This document shows, one piece after another, positions 1-12,217 of a DNA stretch of 64,000 nt. Both the position numbers and the translations under genes were made by a program. How positions within the stretch are numbered: position 1 is the stretch's first letter; every line of letters starts with the position of its first letter. Origin of the DNA: Arcticibacter pallidicorallinus (GTDB lineage Bacteria > Bacteroidota > Bacteroidia > Sphingobacteriales > Sphingobacteriaceae). A model generated the notes under the pieces. It saw nothing but the letters and a program-made list of their open reading frames with translations. It was not told where the DNA came from and did not search any database. The stretch covers positions 1-64,000 of the forward strand of contig NZ_PVTH01000014.1 in the NCBI RefSeq assembly GCF_003002875.1, written 5' to 3'.

Positions 1-73
1 CTTTCATGCGTGTTCTTTGATCCATTACTTTATCTTTTCCGCAAAGTAAGTTCATTCAGCAAGTCACATCAAT

Positions 74-1552
74 ATGCAGTTGGTCGGCCGGTTACACCTC
101 GACCTGTATAACAGCATCCAGACCGGACAGCTCACCGAGAAAGCAGCCGAAGCCCTGGACGTTAGTACAAACGAGCTGCATCAAACCATAGACCGTTTGA
201 CCAGTGCTTTAGAAAGCTACCGGGCTGAACGGCTGGAAGCCATGAAACCTAGGCAGGCCGAGAAAAAACAGTTAAGCGAAGCGGAGCGTAAAGCGGCCGT
301 GACCTTCCTTAAATCCCCGCACTTGCTTGAAAGAACAAAACAAGCGATTGCAGAAAGCGGACTAATAGGCGAAGAAACCAACAGCCTGATTGCCTACTTA
401 ACCTACACAAGCAGAAAACGCCACACCCCTTTGCACCTGATGTGCCTGGGTGCAAGCGGAACCGGAAAGACCTGGCTGCAGGAAAAAGTTAGTGAGCTGA
501 TGCCGGAAGAAGATAAACTGGAGATCACCACGCTTAGCAGCAACGCCTTTTACTACTTCGGTAGAGAAGAGCTAAAACATAAACTGCTGTTAATTGAAGA
601 TCTGGACGGAGCCGAAAGCGTGCTTTACCCATTACGGGAGCTACAGAGCAAGCGCAGGATAAGTAAAACCGTAACCCTGAAAGACAATAAAGGCAACCTG
701 AAAACAGTCACTCTAAATGTAGAAGGCCCTGTTTGCGTAAGTGGCTGTACCACCAGAGAACAGCTTTATGAAGATAACGCTAACCGCTGCATCCTGCTGT
801 ATATGGATAACAGCCCCGAGCAGGATAAAAAAATCATGGACTACCAGCGCAAGTTAAGCGCAGGTCAGATAGACCAGAGCCAGGAACGAAAAGTACAGGA
901 GCAAATCAAAAACGTACAGCGCATCTTAAAACCCATCACGGTTAAAAACCCGTACGCTACTTTCCTGCAACTTCCAGAGGCGATCTTTAAGCCAAGAAGA
1001 ACCATGCTGTTACTGCTGCTCTTTACCGAAACCATAACCTACTACCACCAATATCAACGGGAGCTGAAAACTGATACCGACACCGGAGAGCAATACATAG
1101 AAAGTACACCGGAAGATATAGAAGCCGCTTTTAGGTTACTTGAAACTACTTTGCTAAAGAAAAGTGACGAGCTGAACGATGCTTGCAGAAACTTCTTTGA
1201 ACGGCTGAAAGCTTACCTCAAAGCGCAGGACACCGAAGCCTTTTATGCCAAAGAAATCCGCTCCGCTTTTCGCCTTAGTCCAAGCAGTTTAAAACGGTAT
1301 CTGTACGAATTGGAACGCATGGGCTATATCAAAATCACCCGAGGCAACCGCTACAAGGGCTTTGAATATAAAGTAAGCAGCTGGAACGATATGGAAACCT
1401 TGCAGGGTAATACCCATGCCCTGATTACAGAAGTATTGGCGCAGATAAAGCAAACCGCAGTAGCCCGTAGTTCAGGAGTAGCCCAAGCTATAAATGGGCC
1501 ACTTAAATCAAAGAAAATCAGCGAGAAAGCAGCAGTAGCCCATGAAAGTTAA
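74..1552 (+). CDS. Primase-associated AAA+/helicase-like ATPase, probably lacking its N-terminal part
   Basis: This is a 492-residue protein with a P-loop (GASGTGKT, residues 126-133) and a hydrophobic Walker B strand ending in ED (about 171-176). A winged-helix-like segment lies near residues 400-460. The first 60 residues resemble the linker that follows the Toprim domain in Bacteroidota CHC2/Toprim primase-helicase proteins, recalled from family knowledge and not searched. In that family a zinc finger and a Toprim domain precede this part. Here an in-frame stop lies at 47-49, just upstream of the ATG, so the protein is either an ATPase-only version or a 5'-truncated remnant. It overlaps the next recombinase gene by 11 bp, so the two are probably translated together. 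A role in processing DNA of a mobile element is inferred. Confidence 0.6.
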   Translation: MQLVGRLHLDLYNSIQTGQLTEKAAEALDVSTNELHQTIDRLTSALESYRAERLEAMKPRQAEKKQLSEAERKAAVTFLKSPHLLERTKQAIAESGLIGEETNSLIAYLTYTSRKRHTPLHLMCLGASGTGKTWLQEKVSELMPEEDKLEITTLSSNAFYYFGREELKHKLLLIEDLDGAESVLYPLRELQSKRRISKTVTLKDNKGNLKTVTLNVEGPVCVSGCTTREQLYEDNANRCILLYMDNSPEQDKKIMDYQRKLSAGQIDQSQERKVQEQIKNVQRILKPITVKNPYATFLQLPEAIFKPRRTMLLLLLFTETITYYHQYQRELKTDTDTGEQYIESTPEDIEAAFRLLETTLLKKSDELNDACRNFFERLKAYLKAQDTEAFYAKEIRSAFRLSPSSLKRYLYELERMGYIKITRGNRYKGFEYKVSSWNDMETLQGNTHALITEVLAQIKQTAVARSSGVAQAINGPLKSKKISEKAAVAHES

Positions 1553-2459
1553 AAAACATAAGGCAGGCAATAATCTGCAACTGAAAAATCCCCTCTATAT
1601 CCGTTTACAAGCTGGCTTTAGTGAATGGCTTAGAATCCTGAACTTTGAGCCAAGCTCACAAAAATACATGCCTGGTCTGCTGGGTGAGTTCCTTTCTTTT
1701 CTGGAAGAAGCAGGATGTAACACCATCGCAGAAATACAGGAAAAGCAAATCAGGGAATACCTCGAATACCTGTCCATCCGGCCAAACCGGAAATGGGAAG
1801 GCGGTCTAAGCAAAAACTACATCCGGAAATACTTACAGGTCATCCGGAAGTTTGCAAGGTATCTGGCCGAGAGCGGACAGGAAAGCTTTACGGCAGACAT
1901 TCAGATAAAAGGTAAGGCAACGAATATCAAAAGCATCTTAACGAAAGCTGAAATCAGGAAGCTGTATGAAGCAACCGCAGACGATAAACTCGGGCTAAGA
2001 GATAAAGCCATGCTTGCCCTGTATTACGGTTGTGGCCTGCGGAAAAATGAAGGCTTAAGCTTAAACGTAACTGATATCCTGTTAGATAAAGAGCTGGTGC
2101 ATGTTCGGAAAGGCAAAGGCTACAAAGAGCGGTATGTACCGCTTGCAGGCGCTGGTAAAACTGACCTTGAAACTTACCTGAACCATAGCAGGCCATATCT
2201 TTTAAACAACAGAAAAGAGGAAGCCTTACTGGTTAATATCAGCGGTAAGCGGCTAAAGACAGCTTTTGAACGAATACAAAAACTACGGGCCGAAGCAGGA
2301 ATAAATAAAGTGATTGGCTTGCATACGCTACGCCACAGTATTGCTACCCATCTTTTACAATCAGGAATGAAGCTGGAGCAGATACAAAGGTTCCTGGGCC
2401 ATAGCAGTCTGGAAAGCACCCAAATCTACACCCATATTATTCATGAGGCAGGGCTATAA
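1542..2459 (+). CDS. Tyrosine recombinase (XerC/D-like integrase), catalytically complete
   Basis: This 305-residue tyrosine recombinase has an N-terminal SAM-like core-binding domain (about 15-125) and a C-terminal catalytic domain. All expected catalytic positions are visible: Arg I in GCGLRKNE (R167), a beta-hairpin Lys near 192, the HTLRH box (H261, R264), H287 in LGHSS and the nucleophile Y296 in IYTH. Such enzymes cut and rejoin DNA through a 3'-phosphotyrosine link, at att or dif-like sites. The gene overlaps the upstream ATPase by 11 bp and the next recombinase by 17 bp, so the three genes form one translational unit. It is likely the active integrase of a mobile element. Confidence 0.88.
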   Translation: MKVKKHKAGNNLQLKNPLYIRLQAGFSEWLRILNFEPSSQKYMPGLLGEFLSFLEEAGCNTIAEIQEKQIREYLEYLSIRPNRKWEGGLSKNYIRKYLQVIRKFARYLAESGQESFTADIQIKGKATNIKSILTKAEIRKLYEATADDKLGLRDKAMLALYYGCGLRKNEGLSLNVTDILLDKELVHVRKGKGYKERYVPLAGAGKTDLETYLNHSRPYLLNNRKEEALLVNISGKRLKTAFERIQKLRAEAGINKVIGLHTLRHSIATHLLQSGMKLEQIQRFLGHSSLESTQIYTHIIHEAGL

Positions 2460-3405
2460 GTTTAATGGGAGGATTAGTTCAATGCTGGAAAGCTTTCAGG
2501 TCTACTTAGAGAATGAGCAGCAGCAAAGCAAGCATTATGTACGTCAGAATAAGAACTACGCAGGACTGTTCCTTACCTGGCTGGAGAAAGAAAGCCTGGA
2601 ACCGGAGCAGGTCAGTTATGCCGAAGTGCTGGCCTATGCAGATAAGTTAAAAGAAAAAGGTCACGCTATCGGTTATATCAACCGGAATATACTTGCTATC
2701 CGATATTACTTCTATAGCCTGCAAAACGAAGGAGAACCCAGGCCCAATCCGGCAGCAGGTATCCATCTGAAAGGCGCTGTAAGAACCGTTCCCCATGACC
2801 TGTTAAACAAGGAAGAGCTGGAAGCGCTTTACAACAGTTATGAGGCAAACGATGCACGCACACACCGGAATAAAGTAATCCTGTCTCTGCTCATCTTTCA
2901 GGGTATTACCAATGAAGAATTGCACAAGCTGGAAGCCCATCATATCAAGCTCAAAGAAGGTAAAATCCATATTCCCGCAGGAAACCAAACCAGCAGCCGG
3001 ATATTGAAACTGGAAGCAGAGCAAATCATGGAGCTGTACGAATATATCCATGTTACCCGTGCTAAGATACTGGCAGAACAAACTTCAACCCGGCGTAGCG
3101 GAAGAAAGCCAAAGCAGTTCAAAGAAGCAGGAACTATCCACCAGCTTTTTATCAGTATGAACGGCTGTGAGAACATCAAAACCAGTTTGTACCACTTTAA
3201 CCAGGCACTAAGGAAGCTTAATCCAAAATACCGGAATGCCATACAGATAAGGCAAAGTGTAATTACAGAATGGTTAAAAGAAAAGGATCTGCGAACCGTT
3301 CAGTACATGGCCGGCCACCGACACGTTAGTTCAACCGAACGTTACCAGACAAATAACCTGGAGGACCTGAAAGAAGCCCTCAACAAATACCATCCGCTCA
3401 AATAA
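2443..3405 (+). CDS. Degenerate tyrosine recombinase partner
   Basis: This 320-residue protein has the tyrosine recombinase fold: an N-terminal core-binding domain and a C-terminal half ending in a GHRH...ERYQT motif (H292, candidate nucleophile Y301). Several catalytic positions are changed. The Arg I position reads GITNEE (T156 in place of Arg), and the HxxRH box reads IQIRQ, so its first His is Ile267 and its last is Gln271; R270 remains. It could still bind DNA and offer a tyrosine, but strand cleavage should be impaired. It overlaps the intact recombinase by 17 bp, which suggests a heteromer with a division of labour. It could also be a decaying paralogue, but the frame is intact throughout. 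Confidence 0.8.
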   Translation: MRQGYKFNGRISSMLESFQVYLENEQQQSKHYVRQNKNYAGLFLTWLEKESLEPEQVSYAEVLAYADKLKEKGHAIGYINRNILAIRYYFYSLQNEGEPRPNPAAGIHLKGAVRTVPHDLLNKEELEALYNSYEANDARTHRNKVILSLLIFQGITNEELHKLEAHHIKLKEGKIHIPAGNQTSSRILKLEAEQIMELYEYIHVTRAKILAEQTSTRRSGRKPKQFKEAGTIHQLFISMNGCENIKTSLYHFNQALRKLNPKYRNAIQIRQSVITEWLKEKDLRTVQYMAGHRHVSSTERYQTNNLEDLKEALNKYHPLK

Positions 3406-4102
3406 ACCCTACCCGCAAAAGGCCTCCCCACAAGGCCGACGCTCGCAGGAAAAGCGGTGTTCCCTGCGTCAGCCTGGTACAAAAAGATATGCCAGCCCGT
3501 TCAGCCCATTTTTATTGGTGTTTGTTGTTTTTAAGGCATAAAAAAGAGCTTCTCGCCTAAAGGTGCTCCGTGATACTCCGCAGGCTGTCATACTTTTCAC
3601 CCAGTCTGCCTCCGTTCACGGCAGCCTCCTTTGTCCTTAAGGCGCTATTTATTACGGCTGACCATTCCGGCTATACATTTTTTCCCGGGCCACAGCCCAC
3701 CACACCAAAAAATGTTTACCCTTCATTGCCTCCATTGCATACCGCCTTAAGTCCACCGGCTGCCAGTGTATGCTCGCCTGCGGGTCGCTTCGGGCTACGG
3801 GCGAATGTTTGATTGTAGCCTCCGGCAGGTAGGTTTGCCCTTGTGTAGTGCGTTAAGTGCCGTCCTGTTTATTGCTAAGCAAACACAGTCCAACCCTTAA
3901 CTTCTACATACCTGCAAACGCCTTTCAGGCTCTCTTTGCAGTACCCTAGCTCCACTCGCTGGACGGCGAGGGCGCACAAGCGGATTGCAAACCATTACGC
4001 TGCGCTTCATTCTCCTGCAACCGCTTTTACCCTACGCTAGCTCAAGGCTGTTTTTCCTGCTTTTTTCCTTGCACAACAAAACGCATAGGGCTACTACCAG
4101 AC

Positions 4103-4154
4103 TGGGCGGGGGAACAGCCCTGCGTCTCCGAAGCAGGGGCAGCAGTCCCGCCCA
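4103..4154. repeat. Nested GC-rich hairpin
   Basis: An outer 8-bp stem pairs TGGGCGGG (4103-4110) with CCCGCCCA (4147-4154). Inside it a second stem pairs CCCTGC (4118-4123) with GCAGGG (4133-4138). The result is a two-level imperfect cruciform of 52 nt. It abuts the next hairpin with no gap. Lack of a T-run argues against an ordinary terminator. It may be a folded single-strand recombination or transfer site. Confidence 0.6.
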
Positions 4155-4225
4155 ACCTCCTTGTGACAGAAAGAGCCGCACAAATCAGCCCTCAAAAACC
4201 AAAGCTCTTTCCATCACAAGGAGGT
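4155..4225. repeat. 22-bp inverted repeat, 27-nt loop
   Basis: The left arm at 4155-4176 (starts ACCTCCTTGTGA, ends GAAAGAGC) pairs with the right arm at 4204-4225 (starts GCTCTTTC, ends TCACAAGGAGGT). Only two of 22 positions do not match. The arm contains an AAGGAGG-like sequence, but no reading frame follows at ribosome-site distance. Its direct contact with the preceding nested hairpin suggests one composite structure of 123 nt. Confidence 0.62.
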
Positions 4226-4252
4226 CGTGGTTTGCGCCTAAAAACCGGTAAT

Positions 4253-4387
4253 AGCAAGATGTATTTTTGTATACACAAAAAGGTAAAAATCACATGCAGC
4301 AAGATGTACGATTGTGTCACAAATTGCACCATAGCAAGATGTACGTTTGTCATACAAATGCATCTTCATCGCCAAAAGCAAGATGTA
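4253..4387. repeat. Four direct copies of AGCAAGATGTA, iteron-like
   Basis: The 11-mer AGCAAGATGTA occurs without mismatch at 4253-4263, 4298-4308, 4333-4343 and 4377-4387. The copies start 45, 35 and 44 bp apart. Three nucleotides after each copy there is TTGT (TTGG in the last), and 2-4 nt later ACAAA, so the shared unit is about 25 bp with a small internal dyad. Around the third copy the symmetry is larger: AAGATG at 4336-4341 and CATCTT at 4361-4366 flank TTTGT-CAT-ACAAA. The spacing and dyads suggest protein-binding sites for the recombinases or for a replication protein. The function is not shown. Confidence 0.65.
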
Positions 4388-4756
4388 TTATTGGATACAA
4401 AAACGATTGCTCCAAAGTCGTCCGGATTCATCAGAGGTTCGGGGTAATCTTCTGTTAAGCACCAAAGAGCGGGAGAAGGGGAAGCTGTCAAGGGAAGGTG
4501 GAATAAATGGCCCTTGTGCGTGAAATGCTTTGTGGGTTTATGCCGCCAAAGTCCCTTTACTGCTTTTCCTTCGGAGGCTACCTTCGCTGTTACAGATGAT
4601 TATCCTTAACAGTAACGGCGCAAAATAACGGCCAACCACGAGGCTTTTAAATGAAAAACTAACTGCTAACTTTACCGCTACAATCGTTCTTTATAAGCCT
4701 GAAAATGAGAGGCTGGAAAGTCTGGGAAATAGCTGAAAAGTTGTGGTAGGCAATGA

Positions 4757-5563
4757 GATTATGGGGCAAGGTTTTATGATCCGGTAATCGGGAGGTGGAA
4801 TGTGGTGGATCCGTTGGCAGAACAACGGGTATGGGTGTCTCCTTTTAACTACGGGCAGAATAACCCGATCAACAGAAACGACCCCACAGGGACTTTGGAT
4901 GATTGGGTTATAGACGAGAACAATAAACCACATTGGGATCCAAATGTTACCAGTGCCAATGACAAAGATTTAAAGCCTGGAAATACCTATGTAGGAAAGG
5001 AAGCTGAATATTTAGCGAAAAATGGAAACACAGTTCAGTTAAACTCAGATGGAACATGGAATTACAAAATTATCCAACCCACTAATGAGATTGCTGCTAA
5101 AGGAATAAATCCAAGTGCTTCGAGTAATGTTGACTGGAATACTGTGGGTAATGGAGCAATGACATTTACGGGTGGAGCATTAGCGACAGTTGGAGGTGTG
5201 GCGGCGTCTCTAACTGGAGTAGGTAGTCCTTTAGGTGTGACTATTTCTATTAGTACAGGAATTTCTGCAATAGGATTCGGTACAGCAATGATAATAGATG
5301 GGTTTCAAGGCGGGAATAGGAATCTTCCTGGAGGATTAGGAGAAGCGATTGATAGAGGAATTGGAGGTAATGGAACAATTGGACAGGCTCTGGATATAGG
5401 ATCAGGCGGGATACCAAATTCTATACCTGATGGAATAATGACTGTACATGGGCTATATAATTCTAATTTAGGAAAACAAATGATGGCTCCTCATTATATT
5501 AATGGAAATTATAACATAGATCGTAGAGATAATACAAAGGTGCTTAAACCTAAATTTCGTTAA
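4757..5563 (+). pseudogene. RHS core end plus variable C-terminal tip (5'-truncated)
   Basis: The frame opens directly after a TGA at 4754-4756 with the RHS core hallmark [14 protein letters not shown], followed by VDPLAEQ and [14 protein letters not shown]. The 268 codons therefore hold only the last part of an RHS core and its tip; the thousand or so residues of YD repeats that normally precede it are missing. After the core (about residue 55) the tip is unrelated to known toxins I can name. It contains a Gly/Ala/Thr-rich hydrophobic stretch (about 135-190) that could cross or insert in a membrane, and a basic end (KVLKPKFR). A later ATG exists at 4802 but lies inside the core. The sequence is AT-richer than the chromosome around it, as is usual for exchanged tips. 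Confidence 0.7.
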
Positions 5564-5565
5564 TA

Positions 5566-5973
5566 ATGAATATCTTCAAATTTCAGAATAAACAAAAAAT
5601 AAATTATACTTTACTCTCAATAATTACGGGAATTATGGGAATAATGGTTATATCAAATTTGCAACTTGACGTTAATAAGTATTTCATATATTTCGTAATT
5701 TCAATTGCTTCGTTTTGCTCAACGCTGTTGTCAATCAGAAAGGCCTCAGTTGAAATAGAAGAAATACTTATACAAGAAGAAGTGTTAACATTGCGATTTT
5801 TCAATAAAATGAAAAGCGAAATTTCCATATCGAAGAGCGGCGTGGAAATTGAGCCTACTGCAGATGAAATAATAATGAGAAATGCAGAAACAGGGAAACT
5901 GATCGGTATTGCTGATAAGCGAAAAATAGATAATCAGGATAGCTGGGAAAGACTAACTAAACTTCTTTGTTGA
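5566..5973 (+). CDS. Small two-helix membrane protein, candidate immunity protein for the RHS tip
   Basis: This 135-residue protein starts 2 bp after the stop of the RHS tip. It has two hydrophobic helices (about 15-33 and 38-57) and a C-terminal soluble part of about 75 residues rich in Glu, Ile and Lys, ending DSWERLTKLLC. I do not recognise the family; the layout (two helices, then a short beta-rich domain) resembles bacterial PH-like membrane proteins. Position next to a toxin-tip gene and low GC point to an immunity protein. A membrane immunity protein would fit a membrane-active tip, but this is inference. Confidence 0.5.
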   Translation: MNIFKFQNKQKINYTLLSIITGIMGIMVISNLQLDVNKYFIYFVISIASFCSTLLSIRKASVEIEEILIQEEVLTLRFFNKMKSEISISKSGVEIEPTADEIIMRNAETGKLIGIADKRKIDNQDSWERLTKLLC

Positions 5974-6001
5974 TATTTCTATAACACTCCCCTAGGTAAC
6001 G

Positions 6002-6196
6002 GATCATCCAAATCAAATTGACAAATCTCCATATGCTTATGCTTGGAATAATCCAGTAAATCTAACAGCTCCTGACGGGAACTGTCCTTTATGTCCAATA
6101 ATATGGTGGGCAGCGGAATTGATAATGACCTCCTCCCGCAAAACAGGAACAATTAGAATGGTGTCTCGGGCCTTTGTTAGACTACAATACCTGTAA
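6002..6196 (+). pseudogene. Second orphan RHS tip remnant
   Basis: In frame from 6002 the DNA reads DHPNQIDKSPYAYAWNNPVN, then LTAPDGNCPLCP and a short tail ending at the TAA at 6194-6196. The first part is the terminal RHS core sequence of Bacteroidota YD-repeat proteins, which usually follows DPLA. Upstream the frame is closed by a TAG at 5993-5995. Only about 64 codons remain, so this is the junction and first residues of another tip, without repeats and probably without a complete toxin. Confidence 0.7.
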
Positions 6197-6216
6197 GTAA
6201 TCCTTATCACGTGTGA

Positions 6217-6396
6217 TCGATACGCGTGAGTTATAAAACATACTTGAATGCTTCCTTGCGCTTCATAACTAAGGATTTTGCCAATGATAGTTACCTGGGC
6301 GCACTCCCGGGTGACCCAATCCAGGAAGACTACAATGGTCTTCTATTATTGTACTCATCCATCCATACCCCAGTATGTACCGTGCGATTTGATTAA
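6217..6396 (+). pseudogene. Possible remnant of an immunity gene
   Basis: An open frame without a start codon runs from just after a TGA (6214-6216) to a TAA at 6394-6396. It includes KDFANDSYLGALPGDPIQED, followed by YNGLLLLYSS and a short end. The composition looks coding. It follows the second RHS tip remnant and ends just before a strong terminator, as the last part of a tip-associated immunity gene would. No family is recognised. Confidence 0.35.
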
Positions 6397-6408
6397 TAAT
6401 CTGATATG

Positions 6409-6445
6409 AAAAGCTAGACTGCAGTATAGCTGCAGTCTAGCTTTT
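6409..6445 (+). terminator. Strong intrinsic terminator
   Basis: A perfect 16-bp stem pairs 6409-6424 (AAAAGCTAGACTGCAG) with 6430-6445 (CTGCAGTCTAGCTTTT) around a TATAG loop, and T-rich sequence follows. It closes the array of RHS tip remnants. Its symmetry lets it work in both directions. Confidence 0.85.
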
Positions 6446-6548
6446 TATATTAGCATCGTGAATTAGAACGTACTTGTGTTTTATATGAAGCTAACAAGGA
6501 AGCATACAGCGGAGCTAAATCATCAAACATTTAAATAATTGACTAATT

Positions 6549-9500
6549 ATGGTAAGAAGTTCAAGCACTCAACCGTTCGAATCTAAAAGCCCATCTGAAT
6601 TCAGACCTTTCAAACGTGGTGGTTTTAGACAATTGATTTGGGTTTTTCTATTGGCTAATCTTTTAGTAACCAAGTGTGTATTCGCCCAGTTTTCGCAAAC
6701 GACGGATATTACTCCTCCCTCACCAATCGCTCAGAATTTTATGAGGTACGGAGAGATTCCGGTAGATTATAGTACCGGAATTCCCCAAATTGAGATTCCC
6801 ATTTATACTATAGAAGGGAAGAGGTTGAACCTGCCGATTTCTATTTCATACCATGCCTCTGGAATAAAAGTAAATGATGTCGCATCTGAAGTAGGCCTTG
6901 GTTGGGTGCTGAATGCTGGTGGTATTGTATCGCGAACCACTTTAGATAGAAAAGATGGATCAGGCGCGCCAAGAAACTATGGCTATGCTAGCCAATTGCT
7001 TTCTAGAATTAACACCGACGCTCATATTTGGGACTCAGCATACTGTAGTCTCAGCGGTATTAAAGGTTTGGAAGACTACTTAGTCGGAAACTTTTTAAAT
7101 GAAGATAAAATGAGCGACCGATTTTTCTACAGATTGCCAAATGGGACTTCTGGAATATTCAGGAAGGGTCTATTCAGCGATTCTACAATTACTCTGCCTT
7201 ACAAACCTTACAAGATAGAAAGACAAGGAGGCGCTACTCTAGATAGTTTAAAAATCACTGATGATGATGGTACCGTTTACAAGTTCAAATTATTGAATTC
7301 TTATTCTCAGGCTGAAGCTACCGACTGGCATTTAACAGAAATGATGTCCGCAGATAGAACTGAGAAAATAACATTTCATTATAAGACAAACACGGGAAAT
7401 TATTCCTGGGGCTCTGGTTATCAGATATTTAGCGGGCGTCCAATTCTTCAGACTAGCAACTGTCCTCCTTCTAATATCAATCCCGCTCTAACTCCGATTA
7501 GAACGCAGCCTACGTATCATGCACCCGTATTGGAAAAAATCGTAAGTTCTACTGCTATTGTTAATTTTATGTATGCCAGCAGGGAAGATTTCACCATGTT
7601 GAGACTCGCCAGGATTACAGTGTCTCCTATCGGTGCATCGACTGAGATAATAAAGAAAATTGACTTTGCACCGAAGTACTTCGGTACAAACACCAGTGAC
7701 AAGAGACTCGGTCTCGACTTTGTAACGTTCAGAGGATCAGAAGATAGTGATCCACAGAAGTACTCCTTCACTTATGAAAGTCAAGCACTACCCCCTTATC
7801 CGTTTAAGATGGGATCTCCCATGAATAACGAGGATTTCTGGGGATATTACAATGGTAGCAACTCGTTTTCATCTATTCAAAGCGACTTCATATCAAATGT
7901 TAGTGACAGGTCGGCCTATGGAGGTAACCGGGAGGCGAATCTTCCCCTCTCTCGGGCCTGCATGCTTAAGGAGATTAAATATCCGACGGGAGGCAAGACC
8001 GTATTTCAATTTGAGCGGCCCTATTCATCAAATCTCTATCAATATAAAAGTAGTGGTGGATATTTTGGACCGTTCAGAGTGCTTAGTATTACCAACTATA
8101 CTACGGAAACCGAAGTTGCAGATGTAAAGACATTTGAATACATAAATGCTAGGTGGAAGCCTATTGCTCCTCACATGTTTAGGTATGACCAATCTTATCG
8201 TGATATACCAAACTGTCAATCCAATTACTCTAAAGAGTTGGTATTTTCAAACCCGACTTTACCTTTAGAGGTCGCTCCCGGAATACAAGCAATGTACACC
8301 ACGGTAGTAGTATACGATGGCACACGAGCTAACAACACCGGTAAAACTGTATATAATTATAATGAACCTTACTCCCCTTCTTACTATGATAACCAGCCTA
8401 GTCATCCGGCACAATGGGAGCAGGATCAGTTTTATCATTCCTTTAACTATGACAAAGGAAATTATGTTCCAGAGCTGACCAGGAAATCAAGCTATTCTCG
8501 TGCGGGCGCAGGATATGTTCCCGTTAAAAGTGAAATCTACAGATATCAAAAGTTATATACCGCCGATTTTCAGACAGGAATAAAGTTAACGAGACCTCTG
8601 CTGTACGCGAATCCTGATGCGAATTTTTCGGTTCCATGTGGAGGGCATGATCTGTTAATTCAGTTAGGGCCAGTGATAGCAGAGTATATCGCATCGATAG
8701 TCGTAGTAGATACTAAAGCCTTTCAGGAAGCCTCTTTGCTTGTCAACAGTGAAGCCTATATCTATGATAGGCTTGACACCAACAAATATGTGTTTACTTC
8801 TACGGATTATACCTACAACCAAAACAATCTGCAAGTGAGTGAAAGCAGGACAGTTGCTAGCAAAAATGAGGAATTGAAAGTAGTTTACAAATATCCGGCT
8901 GACTTCGGCGACGCTGCTTCAGTTGCCTTAAAATCCCGCAACCAGATTAAGTTGCTACTGGAAGAAGAAGCTTACCAAGGAACTTCTTTTCTGCGGAAAA
9001 CAAAAGCCAGCTATCATGATTGGGGAAATAATATTATAGCGCCTAAAGATATTGAGGTGAAAAATGGGAATGGCCCTCTTGAATCTAGATTAAATTATCT
9101 CAGTTATGATAAAAAAGGAAATCCTGCCGTGATAAAAAAAACCGGAGGTCCTCCTGTTTCCTACCTCTGGGACCACGTTAGCACTATGCCTGTTGCCAAA
9201 GTGGATAATGCCATTTTTGTGAGCAGTTCTCCGCAGGGGTGGTATGAGTCGTTATTTTTCGTGGATGTCATGAATAGCAATCAACGGTACCCCATGTATG
9301 GGAGCTATTCTATTCCACAGATTGTCAACACTACGATAACTCGGCAGTACTTCAAAGCTGCCGACCACCAAGCTACATTCAATATCTACGTTTACGATGC
9401 AGGTCATAACTTGACGGCTTCATATTCAGATTTCATGCCTTATTCAGATACTTATCTGACAGTATCCTCTCAAGTTTCGCTACCGTCCGGCTCGTATACA

Positions 9501-10034
9501 GTCGAGGTCAGTTCTACAAATCCAAATGGCTTATCTTACACCCAAGAAGTAGGAGTTACTATGGAAGGTTCTACAGGCAACTCAGCTAGTGTACCATTTT
9601 GTACGAGTTTTGAAGAGGATCAAGTTGGAACTAGCTATAGTCATTTCAAAACTGGAAGAAAATCTTATCTCGGTAGCTATAGTATTTTGCTTCCAGGATG
9701 CGATCCTGCGAATAACAAGTATATATTATCATACTGGATAAAACGAACAGAGGCAGCGCCCTGGGAGTTTGTGACGCAGAATATAACCATTCCGTCATAC
9801 GGTTCTACTATATCAATCGGATCAGCAAATCAATATCTAGATGAAGTAAGGGTTTATCCGCAAAATGGGTTAATGACAACATATACCTATGACCCGCTGA
9901 GAGGGATGACGAGTGAGACTGATTCCAGAGACCGCACAACCACTTATGAATATGATAATTTCCAGCGGTTGAAGACTGTCAGGAATAACGAAGGAAAGAT
10001 CTTAAAGACTTATGATCATCATTTAAAGCCTTGA
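6549..10034 (+). CDS. Large secreted YD-repeat (RHS-family) protein, N-terminal component
   Basis: This 1161-residue protein has a long basic N-terminus, a hydrophobic signal segment (about 29-46, ending FAQ) and then a sequence typical of Bacteroidota YD-repeat proteins: GEIPVDYSTGIPQIEIP, SISYHASGIKV, EVGLGWVLNAGG. YD-like repeats occur near the end (YTYDPLRGMTSETDS, TYEYDNFQRLKTV), and it finishes with ILKTYDHHLKP. In relatives this ending is natural, and a second long gene with the RHS core and a toxin tip follows. Here only 375 bp of non-coding or decayed DNA follows. The product should be exported and might form part of a surface shell. The long N-terminal extension makes the exact start uncertain. 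Confidence 0.75.
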   Translation: MVRSSSTQPFESKSPSEFRPFKRGGFRQLIWVFLLANLLVTKCVFAQFSQTTDITPPSPIAQNFMRYGEIPVDYSTGIPQIEIPIYTIEGKRLNLPISISYHASGIKVNDVASEVGLGWVLNAGGIVSRTTLDRKDGSGAPRNYGYASQLLSRINTDAHIWDSAYCSLSGIKGLEDYLVGNFLNEDKMSDRFFYRLPNGTSGIFRKGLFSDSTITLPYKPYKIERQGGATLDSLKITDDDGTVYKFKLLNSYSQAEATDWHLTEMMSADRTEKITFHYKTNTGNYSWGSGYQIFSGRPILQTSNCPPSNINPALTPIRTQPTYHAPVLEKIVSSTAIVNFMYASREDFTMLRLARITVSPIGASTEIIKKIDFAPKYFGTNTSDKRLGLDFVTFRGSEDSDPQKYSFTYESQALPPYPFKMGSPMNNEDFWGYYNGSNSFSSIQSDFISNVSDRSAYGGNREANLPLSRACMLKEIKYPTGGKTVFQFERPYSSNLYQYKSSGGYFGPFRVLSITNYTTETEVADVKTFEYINARWKPIAPHMFRYDQSYRDIPNCQSNYSKELVFSNPTLPLEVAPGIQAMYTTVVVYDGTRANNTGKTVYNYNEPYSPSYYDNQPSHPAQWEQDQFYHSFNYDKGNYVPELTRKSSYSRAGAGYVPVKSEIYRYQKLYTADFQTGIKLTRPLLYANPDANFSVPCGGHDLLIQLGPVIAEYIASIVVVDTKAFQEASLLVNSEAYIYDRLDTNKYVFTSTDYTYNQNNLQVSESRTVASKNEELKVVYKYPADFGDAASVALKSRNQIKLLLEEEAYQGTSFLRKTKASYHDWGNNIIAPKDIEVKNGNGPLESRLNYLSYDKKGNPAVIKKTGGPPVSYLWDHVSTMPVAKVDNAIFVSSSPQGWYESLFFVDVMNSNQRYPMYGSYSIPQIVNTTITRQYFKAADHQATFNIYVYDAGHNLTASYSDFMPYSDTYLTVSSQVSLPSGSYTVEVSSTNPNGLSYTQEVGVTMEGSTGNSASVPFCTSFEEDQVGTSYSHFKTGRKSYLGSYSILLPGCDPANNKYILSYWIKRTEAAPWEFVTQNITIPSYGSTISIGSANQYLDEVRVYPQNGLMTTYTYDPLRGMTSETDSRDRTTTYEYDNFQRLKTVRNNEGKILKTYDHHLKP

Positions 10035-10187
10035 CAAGCTCATCACGACATGACGATTTGAATTATCTTAACCTAGAGACTATGAGTGGGCTCCGTTTGT
10101 AAAAAAAATCACACGCACACGCTAACGGACAGCCATCCCCTAGAGTCAATTAGAACTCCGAAGAGAAAAGTTGTTGATACGCTATAG

Positions 10188-10361
10188 TATAAACAGTCAG
10201 TTGAACTCCCTGTTGGTACAGATTTGAACGTCCAATCTGCAAATTTCTGTCTATTCAGCTGGAATGTTTCGGGTTTTGATAAAAAGAAACAGATTTGGTC
10301 AGGTCATCCGTCTAAGATCGGACGCGTGATCTATAAAGAAAGATTAGCTCCGGCTGGATAA
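10188..10361 (+). pseudogene. Decayed open frame in the 10035-10409 gap
   Basis: The gap between the YD-repeat gene and the next gene contains one coding-looking frame. Codons from about 10120 read through SHPLESIRTPKRKVVDTL to a TAG at 10185-10187, and then the same frame continues for 57 codons (SANFCLFSWNVSGFDKKKQI, then WSGHPSKIGRVIYKERLAP) to a TAA at 10359-10361. There is no start codon and there is one internal stop. It may be the end of a lost gene, perhaps an immunity or tip gene. The rest of the gap shows nothing clear. Confidence 0.3.
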
Positions 10362-10409
10362 GAGTCGTTTTAATTGAATTGCTAACTTTAAGTATCTAAT
10401 CAATCGCGT

Positions 10410-11129
10410 ATGAAAAAGAAATGTATATTGGGCGTAGTCCTTCTGGTAGTAACAGTTTTGAAAGCAGCTTCGGCTCAGCTCAATAGCACCGCAATAACAG
10501 GTGCATGGCAGATTAAAGAAGCAGGGATTGAACAACTATTGATTTTTCAGGACGGGTTCTTTTTTCATACCGCTTACAATAGGAGTGAAAAGCAATTTGT
10601 TTACAGTCACGGCGGAAAATATACTCCCGAGGGGGATGCGTTAAATATTCAGGTTCTTTTCAATTCATCAGATAAGGTAGAGGTAGGTAAGCAGTTCAAT
10701 ACAAAGTATTCTATTGCCGGTCATACCCTTAAGATATCCTTGAAAGGGAAAATGCAAAACTGGAACCGTTTAGATGACAGCTCTGCACCTCTTGCAGGGG
10801 TATGGCGAATTACTTCCCGCATGCAGGATGGCAAGCTGACTCCTATTCATCAAACGGGGTCCAGACAAACCTATAAAGTACTTTCGGGAACTCGCTTTCA
10901 GTGGGCAGCCATCGATCCTGAGAAGAAGGAATTTTCAGGTACCGGAGGAGGAAGTTATACGTTTGTTAACGGAAAATATACTGAAACTATTGAGTTCTTT
11001 TCACGAGACAGCTCCCGTGTGGGCGCCTCTCTGAGCTTTGATGGAAAGCTGGAAAATGGTGAATGGCATCATAGCGGCCTTAGCTCTAAAGGTGCTCCGA
11101 TTTATGAAATATGGAGCCGGGTGAGATAG
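10410..11129 (+). CDS. Secreted protein with two lipocalin-like modules
   Basis: The 239-residue product begins with a signal peptide (MKKKCILGVVLLVVTVLKAA, cut near SAQ). Two modules follow, starting GAWQIKEAG (about 31) and GVWRITSRMQDG (about 131). Each is a run of short beta strands with conserved Trp and Gly, as in lipocalin-like proteins called 'membrane or secreted protein' in this phylum. It is probably periplasmic or on the surface, with a possible small hydrophobic ligand; the function is unknown. It stands alone, with about 100 bp to the next gene. Confidence 0.6.
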   Translation: MKKKCILGVVLLVVTVLKAASAQLNSTAITGAWQIKEAGIEQLLIFQDGFFFHTAYNRSEKQFVYSHGGKYTPEGDALNIQVLFNSSDKVEVGKQFNTKYSIAGHTLKISLKGKMQNWNRLDDSSAPLAGVWRITSRMQDGKLTPIHQTGSRQTYKVLSGTRFQWAAIDPEKKEFSGTGGGSYTFVNGKYTETIEFFSRDSSRVGASLSFDGKLENGEWHHSGLSSKGAPIYEIWSRVR

Positions 11130-11174
11130 CTGGCAGACTTTTACTATTTACTGTAACTATTCACGAACAATTTT

Positions 11175-11233
11175 CATCTTATATATACTTTGATTAAAGG
11201 TTTTTTCCTCACCATCAAAATGTATATAAGATG
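11175..11233 (+). promoter_or_regulatory. Promoter with an 11-bp dyad that reaches the start codon
   Basis: A Bacteroidota-type -7 element TACTTTG lies at 11186-11192. The preceding 11 bp, CATCTTATATA (11175-11185), are repeated in inverted form as TATATAAGATG at 11223-11233, whose last three bases are the ATG of the next gene. Because the left arm lies upstream of the likely transcription start, an RNA hairpin would not contain both arms. A protein bound to both DNA arms is the likelier use. Confidence 0.4.
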
Positions 11234-12217
11234 AAAAAGTTTATCGTTCTTCTTTTAGCCGTAGGCTTGGCAGCTTCGGTACAAGCACAATTTAACGCGG
11301 ACAAGGATCCCTTGGTCACGAAGTCTTTAAATAACCAGTCCATCAGGAAAGTTATCGCGCGTACTTCGGGTGGTAGTATCACATTGACGGGGGTTAGTGA
11401 GGGTGAGGCGCGGCTGGAGGTTTATGTGAAACCTTCGGGAATAAGCTTTGGAAGTATGTCTAAATCTGAACTTCAGGAAAAGCTGGCCGATGATTACGAC
11501 CTGGTAATTTCTACGGCAAACAATCAGCTCGAGGTGACGGCGAAGTCCAAAAGCAGCATCAACTGGAAGCGCCAGCTAAGTATTTCTTTCAAAATATATG
11601 TTCCCCGCAATGTGAGCAGCGACTTATCAACCAGCGGAGGCAGTATCAAACTCGCCAACTTAAATGGTGACCAACGGTTTCGGACCAGCGGGGGAAGTTT
11701 GCAGATTACAGATATCCGGGGAAACATTGATGGGAAGACATCCGGAGGAAGCATAAACGCTGATAAATGTACGGGTGGTGAGATTTCGCTTGCTACATCG
11801 GGGGGATCGTTAAAGCTTAACAATCTGAAAGGCATCATTCGGGCCAGTACCAGTGGCGGCAGTATCAGAGGAAGTAATATCTCAGGTGAACTGAAGGCAC
11901 ATACCTCCGGTGGAAGTGTCAACCTGGATGGTTTATCCTGCAGTCTGGAAACGTCAACCAGCGGTGGTAGCATGAATATTTCCGTACTGAATCCTGGTAA
12001 ATATGTGTCTGTGAGTACTTCGGGTGGTAGTGTGAATATGAGTATGCCGGGAAGTAAGGGGATGAATCTGAAGGTAAGCGGACAGTCTGTGCGGGTTAAT
12101 CCCTTAAAGAACTTCAATGGCACTACCGATAAACGGAGAATAAACGGAACAGTGAATGGAGGAGGAATTCCAGTAAATGTAAGTGGTAGTGGCAATGTGA
12201 ACGTGTCTCTGATTTAG
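11231..12217 (+). CDS. Secreted DUF4097-type beta-repeat protein (TSGGS repeats)
   Basis: This 328-residue protein has a signal peptide (cut after VQAQ, about 20). After a first domain (about 25-135) come roughly eight repeats of about 20 residues, each built around TSGGS followed by a short hydrophobic strand. The pattern matches the DUF4097 / head-domain family, in which such repeats stack into a right-handed beta-helix. Location is likely periplasmic or on the surface. No catalytic motif is visible. The repeats also leave the opposite strand free of stops for more than 600 bp, which is not a gene. Confidence 0.7.
   Translation: MKKFIVLLLAVGLAASVQAQFNADKDPLVTKSLNNQSIRKVIARTSGGSITLTGVSEGEARLEVYVKPSGISFGSMSKSELQEKLADDYDLVISTANNQLEVTAKSKSSINWKRQLSISFKIYVPRNVSSDLSTSGGSIKLANLNGDQRFRTSGGSLQITDIRGNIDGKTSGGSINADKCTGGEISLATSGGSLKLNNLKGIIRASTSGGSIRGSNISGELKAHTSGGSVNLDGLSCSLETSTSGGSMNISVLNPGKYVSVSTSGGSVNMSMPGSKGMNLKVSGQSVRVNPLKNFNGTTDKRRINGTVNGGGIPVNVSGSGNVNVSLI

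Follow-up and report, generated by a model that had tools for sequence, protein, structure and literature searches.

A probable remnant of a mobile toxin-tip cassette at the core/tip boundary of an Rhs gene in Arcticibacter pallidicorallinus

How Rhs proteins and the proteins of contact-dependent inhibition (CDI) swap their toxin tips, together with the matching immunity gene, while keeping the old tip has been a standing question since the first account of tip displacement. A stretch of 64,000 bp from Arcticibacter pallidicorallinus, hereafter the window, raises this question at its very start, where genes for an ATPase and two recombinases overlap and are followed by a long non-coding tail and a piece of an Rhs gene. 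What do these genes do beside a toxin gene? In our reading, to which we give a probability of roughly 0.87, the locus is a truncated mobile toxin-tip cassette of a kind that inserts in frame at the Rhs core/tip boundary and displaces the old tip behind its tail. The source assembly measures 4.1 Mb in 23 contigs; the window corresponds to bases 1-64000 of contig C14, and its position 1 is the contig start. Labels beginning with C denote contigs of this assembly, G genomes, L loci and H plasmid records. The features of the locus are as follows.

1..95, minus strand: end of an IS66-type insertion sequence, also the contig end, which truncates open reading frame (ORF) 1; 95/95 bp equal the reverse-complemented end of C4.
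96..1552 (ORF as called 74-1552), plus strand: 5'-truncated gene for a predicted MCM-like AAA+ helicase with a C-terminal winged helix, assigned from the alignment of homologues and an AlphaFold model of the G284 homologue.
1542..2459, plus strand: Rec1, a tyrosine recombinase with a complete catalytic set (Phage_integrase, 4e-38).
2443..3405, plus strand: Rec2, the partner tyrosine recombinase, without the first catalytic Arg and, in most homologues, without the first His (Phage_integrase, 6e-9).
3406..4756, plus strand: non-coding tail; about 3750-3970 and 4418-4695 match the tails of relatives, and 4662-4756 is the conserved terminus adjoining the recombination site.
4757..4767, plus strand: recombination core GATTATGGGGC, the right unit end (attR), coding for DYGA of Rhs, with the crossover point taken from relatives.
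4757..5563, plus strand: displaced Rhs C-terminal tip, 268 open codons from DYGAR.
5566..5973, plus strand: candidate immunity gene of the displaced tip, named from its position and without a Pfam match.

Comparison of assembled genomes delimits the unit, its ends and its crossover point, and reveals its in-frame placement, its arrays, its dispersed identical copies and, in Escherichia coli, occupied and empty sites. In relatives the complete unit spans about 5.7-6.5 kb and runs from an Rhs toxin tip and its immunity gene through an XRE regulator gene on the opposite strand, the MCM-like helicase gene and two tyrosine recombinase genes to the non-coding tail; in many of them the helicase is fused to a CHC2/Toprim primase. 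A preliminary description of this DNA, prepared from the sequence alone, had missed that the unit includes the Rhs tip and immunity gene and that it targets the toxin gene where core and tip meet. The helicase gene is present in 12/100 genomes and in 42/400 genomes of the order, the source genome being included in both counts. Once duplicates (L061, L102 and L062, of L108, L057 and L115, respectively), L092 (near-identical to a copy in L091) and remnants (L077, L059, L063, L064) were left out, 64 helicase instances at 50 loci remained; those that share an array or a genome are not independent of one another. The helicase is at least 450 aa long in 58 of the 64, and in 43 of these 58 the opposite-strand XRE gene, Rec1 and Rec2 were all recognised by seeds. 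Leaving out instances with a helicase below 450 aa, a missing recombinase, less than 3.5 kb of upstream sequence or less than 2.6 kb of downstream sequence gave 27 complete elements at 26 loci, all 27 with XRE. The Rhs core/tip motif lies upstream (within 4.5 kb) in 26 of them and downstream (within 3 kb) in 22, and 21 have it on either side, while a search of control DNA returned 0 matches in 258,000 strand-bases (129 kb read on both strands, made up of the window from 10001 onward and five other stretches, hence not a random genome sample).

At many loci the set sits between two Rhs tips, and displaced arrays, in which a silent tip lies behind an Rhs gene that ends in another tip, are present in relatives. 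The window by itself, which holds the downstream Rhs fragment and lacks the upstream side, would also suit a tipless element that inserts into Rhs genes and inactivates them, the Rhs pieces being its target only. This alternative is very unlikely: the open frame of upstream Rhs genes continues across the site and takes in a tip (e.g. L083, L084, L086, L098, L106), and identical units take in tip and immunity gene while their flanks differ (L083 versus L084; L085 versus L086). At its start the unit has the Rhs tip and immunity gene and at its end the tail; simple insertion without a tip was rejected, these ends enclosing the tip.

Further genes lie inside some units. Genes for YhcG/DUF1016 PDDEXK nucleases stand between Rec2 and the tail at L073 2000-3046 (by Pfam) and L101 12540-13559 (by eye), and a gene for an ORF6N protein occupies the same interval at L068 9453-10070; these are possibly cargo. 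A SymE-like small gene adjoins the XRE regulator at L068 12576-12782 (G029) and at L179 9520-9813 (E. coli cassettes), on strands that differ relative to the helicase. Tail-like DNA also lies directly 5' of Rhs tips at L032 (G048) and L033 (G004), in two genomes without a helicase match; these are possibly worn-out or non-autonomous cassettes.

That the unit moves was proposed in the preliminary description, and this proposal is now strongly supported: the same genes recur with one tail terminus and exact ends, in multiple copies and in tandem arrays, and the E. coli relative has empty sites. Multiple copies of the trio with the same tail, which the description suggested looking for, do exist, and some are 100% identical at different places. 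In G284, 6284 bp are 100% identical at two places, one in frame with an Rhs protein of 1146 aa and with another tip behind it, the other beside a DUF4184 gene and downstream of a relaxase gene. In G139, identity between the L082 copy and either of two further copies is 99.97% across 5.84 kb; the two further copies terminate distinct Rhs proteins (1486 and 1113 aa) and are 99.5% identical to each other over 6.0 kb. Copies in G233 share 5744 bp at 99.7%, and more near-identical pairs occur in G340, G358 and G364. A fixed, non-mobile chromosomal cluster in an Rhs neighbourhood would account for the near-constant gene order XRE-helicase-Rec1-Rec2. Such a cluster is the least probable of the explanations that we weighed, and close to negligible, given the dispersed identical copies and the patchy presence in the 100 and 400 genomes; for the E. 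coli relative, empty sites exclude it.

These copies also locate the crossover. To the left of GATTA in G139 the attR sequence is constant, as expected of the cassette, and the attL sequence variable, as expected of the target; to the right of GATTA the pattern is reversed. This confines the crossover to 5 bp, the GATTA of GATTAYGGNGC (DYGA in the Rhs motif), and G284 and G233 are concordant. Of 40 junction rows, 30 keep a conserved tail terminus, and the window is among them. The terminus consists of GTTCTTT followed by GATTAYGG, with a small GCAC...GTGC pair between the two in many rows. Five short contigs (L103, L105, L110, L111, L112) start at or within a few bases of the core, which is expected if several contexts share it. 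The ends are thus exact in Bacteroidota; of the other observation that the preliminary description had called for, an empty target beside an occupied one, the examples come from the E. coli relative only.

One copy in each of G139, G284, G431 and G358 lies near mobilisation-type genes, identified as a relaxase gene by Pfam in G284 and as ParA- and relaxase-like by eye in the other three. In these copies a near-perfect palindrome, about 160 nt long, has the core at its apex. Three of the palindromes, whose arms differ, were folded with the unit left out and gave -86 to -99 kcal/mol (ViennaRNA script); the arms in G358 measure 79 bp at 98.7%. The palindrome-apex cassettes occupy L085 6786-13080, L082 7386-13234, L095 7387-13089 and L129 3917-10053. 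A search for the apex pattern found it in 7 of 400 genomes, with 0 in a backwards control, and 7/7 adjoin a cassette tail terminus. An empty palindrome was not found, a joined-flank query in 149 genomes giving one-sided matches only among the matches listed; the palindrome may be where cassettes dock, or may travel in with them.

Related modules are found beyond the Bacteroidota and adjoin Rhs, CdiA-type or other large proteins in Bacteroidota, Proteobacteria and Leptospira. Aureispira and Aureibacter carry Rhs upstream (in tandem, with identical immunity proteins), Enterobacter and Pseudomonas a hemagglutinin-type protein, and Leptospira a large M23-annotated protein. The helicase matches 27 plasmid records, of which 14 were examined (H1, H2, H3, H4, H5, H7, H9, H10, H13, H14, H16, H17, H18, H20). 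In 9 of the 14 the upstream annotation includes a toxin, toxin tip or large surface-type protein, the records without such an annotation being H5, H7 (unannotated), H13 (sparsely annotated), H14 and H20; an opposite-strand helix-turn-helix gene is present in 11/14 and a downstream tyrosine recombinase in 13/14.

The empty sites come from E. coli. The module of strain D6 matches 59 of 5426 E. coli genomes, with at least 80% coverage in 55, and four have a cdiA-side variant. At an rhs locus D6 carries two module-bearing cassettes, and compared with Ec-U9-1 its core sites stand 16.7 kb apart; Ec-U9-1 has the same locus without cassettes and a single Rhs frame of 4662 bp that carries D6's distal tip. 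The flanks of the two genomes, 99.3% identical over 6075 bp and 99.0% over 6848 bp, meet at GACCCGATAGGGCT, which codes for DPIGL. The joint is likewise uninterrupted in A34, whose Rhs gene is annotated as three pieces. Among 216 matching genomes, seven have an uninterrupted core-tip joint (two of the seven are equal in length and may be one strain); among the matches listed (13 of 209 partial), all start exactly at the core. At one cdiA locus of E. coli, six further VENN occurrences lie downstream of that in cdiA itself, and the same tail-like sequence precedes two of them. Biologists mark toxin-tip boundaries by the motifs DYGAR in Rhs of Bacteroidota, DPxGL in enterobacterial Rhs and VENN in CdiA. 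Two related circular records exist: one from Shigella flexneri, 8758 bp long, shares 8569 bp with a single D6 array unit at 98.1% identity, and one of 11.3 kb from Lonsdalea holds two tip-immunity-regulator sets, one primase gene and one recombinase gene. Exact terminal direct overlap of 21-400 bp, sought in eight other contigs as a sign of circularity, was present in none.

The 2009 proposal would have tips exchanged through homologous recombination of the RecA type alone, acting between Rhs core fragments that lie on circles; could the recombinase and helicase genes then be passengers? Longer core stretches at some junctions (the second unit of L068, L070, L072 and L121) and a core fragment of 484 bp at one internal junction of D6 would fit this proposal. 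We nevertheless regard it as improbable, because in 30 of the 40 junction rows non-core tail gives way to Rhs at the 11-bp core, the G139 crossover is confined to 5 bp, the copies on DNA of the integrative and conjugative element type (ICE-type) end at the same point without Rhs core upstream, and the displaced E. coli tip starts exactly at its 14-bp core.

Under the mobile-cassette interpretation, we infer that the recombinases would fuse a circular cassette, by the end of its tail, to GATTAYGGNGC within the Rhs codons for DYGA. The Rhs core would then read in frame into the cassette's tip, the old tip and its immunity gene would end up silent behind the tail, and repeated insertion would build arrays. 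Catalysis by Rec1 and Rec2 and a circle as the normal intermediate are presumed in this scheme, in which the helicase and primase would copy the circle and conjugative elements would carry cassettes between cells.

Several observations weigh against this interpretation. In 10 of the 40 junction rows the full tail terminus is missing upstream of the site, and its place is taken by Rhs core or core-like DNA; three of the ten (L097, L119 and the first of L075) are attL picks, and the remainder suggest homologous recombination or a different entry point, so that homologous recombination also reshapes these loci. Six of the 27 complete elements lack one motif, namely three ICE-type elements without a downstream tip, L074 and L076 (distant families) without a recognised downstream motif, and L101, which stands behind a 2464-aa frame with no motif found within 4.5 kb upstream. 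Enterobacterial modules have a single recombinase and another core site, and assembly may have produced the circular records as loops out of tandem arrays, in which case they are not real circles. Foldseek whole-model TM-scores of the helicase to MCM reach only 0.34-0.40. Finally, neither excision nor a circle nor transposition was observed for the window copy, and a search of its own assembly for the left half (helicase N-terminus and regulator region) gave no significant match.

The window copy itself is a remnant, in our reading the right part of a cassette cut by an IS66-type element, because the IS66 end removes the helicase N-terminus and no match to the left half turned up in the assembly. 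The ATG of ORF1 sits inside the IS66-type element, and window residue 8 aligns with residue 56 of the 542-aa homologue in G029. The same IS66-type end (window 1-95) recurs, identical, at the C4 end, and a 90% copy at C8:413-507 adjoins an IS66 TnpA gene. At the C4 end (L065 5726-6001), the identical IS66 end abuts a broken EVE-domain gene. The locus is accordingly not readable as an intact operon, and the preliminary picture of a whole primase and recombinase trio falls with the missing 5' part of the first gene. Its more detailed observations fared better: the overlaps of 11 and 17 bp follow from the ORFs at 74-1552, 1542-2459 and 2443-3405, ORF2 and ORF3 both encode tyrosine recombinases by their Phage_integrase matches, and the non-coding DNA, put at about 1.35 kb, extends for 1351 bp until the Rhs codons at 4757, with only short unsupported ORFs inside. 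The broken RHS genes noted after the tail amount to an Rhs piece that is indeed present but is no mere neighbour; it belongs to the system as the displaced tip. The junction reads tail-GGCAATGA-GATTATGGGGC at 4757-4767, then the open tip of 268 codons and a small gene in the immunity position, so the window shows only the displaced-tip side of an Rhs tip array. Weak relatives of this tip (28-44% identity) lie within open frames of 1146-1212 aa in G265, G172, G295 and G234.

The tail had also been described as carrying paired hairpins and phased repeats. A 22-nt inverted repeat (4155-4176/4204-4225) and four AGCAAGATGTA repeats (4253-4403) are there, but the latter probably do not belong to the unit. 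The AGCAAGATGTA repeats have inverted partner halves, and similar palindromic motifs occur in several related genomes; in the source genome a AGCAAGATGTA-like motif at C5:216768 lies about 4.4 kb or less from a tyrosine integrase gene, and for most of the other loci with such a motif the surrounding DNA, not the genes, was inspected. As the element's own recombination sites these repeats were rejected: the tail match in G011 skips them, and the motif elsewhere in the source genome is near an unrelated integrase. An Rfam search of window 1-12000 returned no family.

What the proteins might contribute can be judged from their homologues. At the positions that we take to be catalytic, Rec1 keeps the R-K-H-R-H-Y set in 50-52 of 52 homologues. 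Rec2 lacks the complete set: its first catalytic Arg is found in 0/52 homologues (T in 34) and the position of the first His holds Q in 42/52 and H in 1/52, while the later Arg, His and Tyr are kept in 52/52; judged from this alignment, Rec2 is apparently degenerate. The first gene had been called a primase/helicase-type ATPase, and the helicase half of this assignment is supported at the level of fold. An AlphaFold model of the G284 homologue (pLDDT 78, 19-row alignment) superposes through its residues 107-504 on MCM2 with a Z of 22.3 over 298 residues at a root-mean-square deviation of 3.3 A, the C-terminal winged helix included; in fold only, the modelled protein thus has the MCM-like arrangement of an AAA+ core with a C-terminal winged helix. 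The primase half does not hold for ORF1, which has no match above the Pfam cut-off and no CHC2 or Toprim domain; nor did the 542-aa helicase homologue match a primase family in NCBIfam or PHROGs, and CHC2 and Toprim domains appear in longer relatives, e.g. the 875-aa protein of L058. A helicase with an optional primase suggests that a circle is copied. A replication-linked mode of movement, as the preliminary description had supposed, is plausible: the product of the first gene resembles an MCM helicase, longer relatives have it fused to primase domains, and related circular records exist. Replication of the circle would be a further step. Searches of the PDB by sequence found no close relative of the helicase, phage records gave no helicase match at E 1e-5, and PADLOC returned no match for the short helicase, Rec1 or Rec2; the long helicase matched the PADLOC models RTasDnaG-like, RT_UG29, DolB and mad8.

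Taken more broadly, and with odds that we put only slightly better than even, polymorphic toxins in at least three phyla may be re-armed by one class of self-mobile, probably self-replicating cassettes, whose boundary motifs would be conserved partly as recombination-site DNA and whose free circles would be the episomal tip reservoir postulated in 2009; conjugative elements would carry cassettes docked at apices of palindromes of about 160 nt that show the core as a hairpin, possibly as single-stranded substrates. If true, the in-cassette recombinase and replicative-type helicase would supply the missing enzyme and the circle, and explain how bacteria trade a toxin tip along with its antidote. 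Tip exchange would become directly testable in E. coli, and the cassette would offer a natural tool for in-frame swaps of C-terminal domains.

The nearest precedent is the Rhs tip displacement of Jackson et al. (2009; PMC2935791), in which a new tip joins the core and the old tip is pushed downstream, forming arrays. That study proposes homologous recombination with a circular intermediate, with no integrase known, and postulates an episomal tip reservoir. The loci described here share the arrays of displaced tips, but their cassettes bring along a module of recombinase and helicase genes, and their crossover has the look of a site-specific one. Zhang et al. (2012; PMC3482391) report toxin cassettes as well as XerC/D genes that adjoin polyimmunity loci. 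The rAID clusters of Bacteroidales combine a tyrosine recombinase with arrays of orphan immunity genes and are linked to interbacterial toxins (PMC12247911, excerpts). Recombinase and arrays are thus common to rAID and the cassette, whereas the rAID arrays consist of orphan immunity genes and the excerpts name no helicase or primase.

Four other kinds of element invite comparison. Integron gene cassettes are likewise circular, are moved by a tyrosine recombinase and form arrays with the newest cassette nearest the expressed part, and the integron attC is a folded single-strand recombination site; the toxin-tip cassette differs in that the recombinase lies inside each cassette and the joint is in frame within a coding sequence, and Rec1 scores 121 bits against the integron integrase model TIGR02249, below its cut-off of 265. 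SCCmec, a site-specific element, has an MCM-like Cch helicase and large serine recombinases and uses another target gene. The cassette resembles it in pairing recombinases with an MCM-like helicase and differs in using tyrosine recombinases at toxin genes. Gamma-mobile-trio (GMT) islands are tyrosine recombinase islands (NCBIfam GmtY) with antibacterial cargo, for which we know of no in-frame tip exchange; against GmtY Rec1 scores 43 bits, below the cut-off of 340, which does not place the cassette among them. A RIT element consists of three adjacent tyrosine recombinases, and the present set has two. In the open-access literature (subscription papers and most preprints lay outside the search), we recognised no paper describing the module with Rhs or CDI, and to our knowledge no element is known whose target and cargo are both the 3' end of the same toxin gene. 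The parts, that is tyrosine recombinases, an MCM-like helicase, circles and displaced tips, are each known already.

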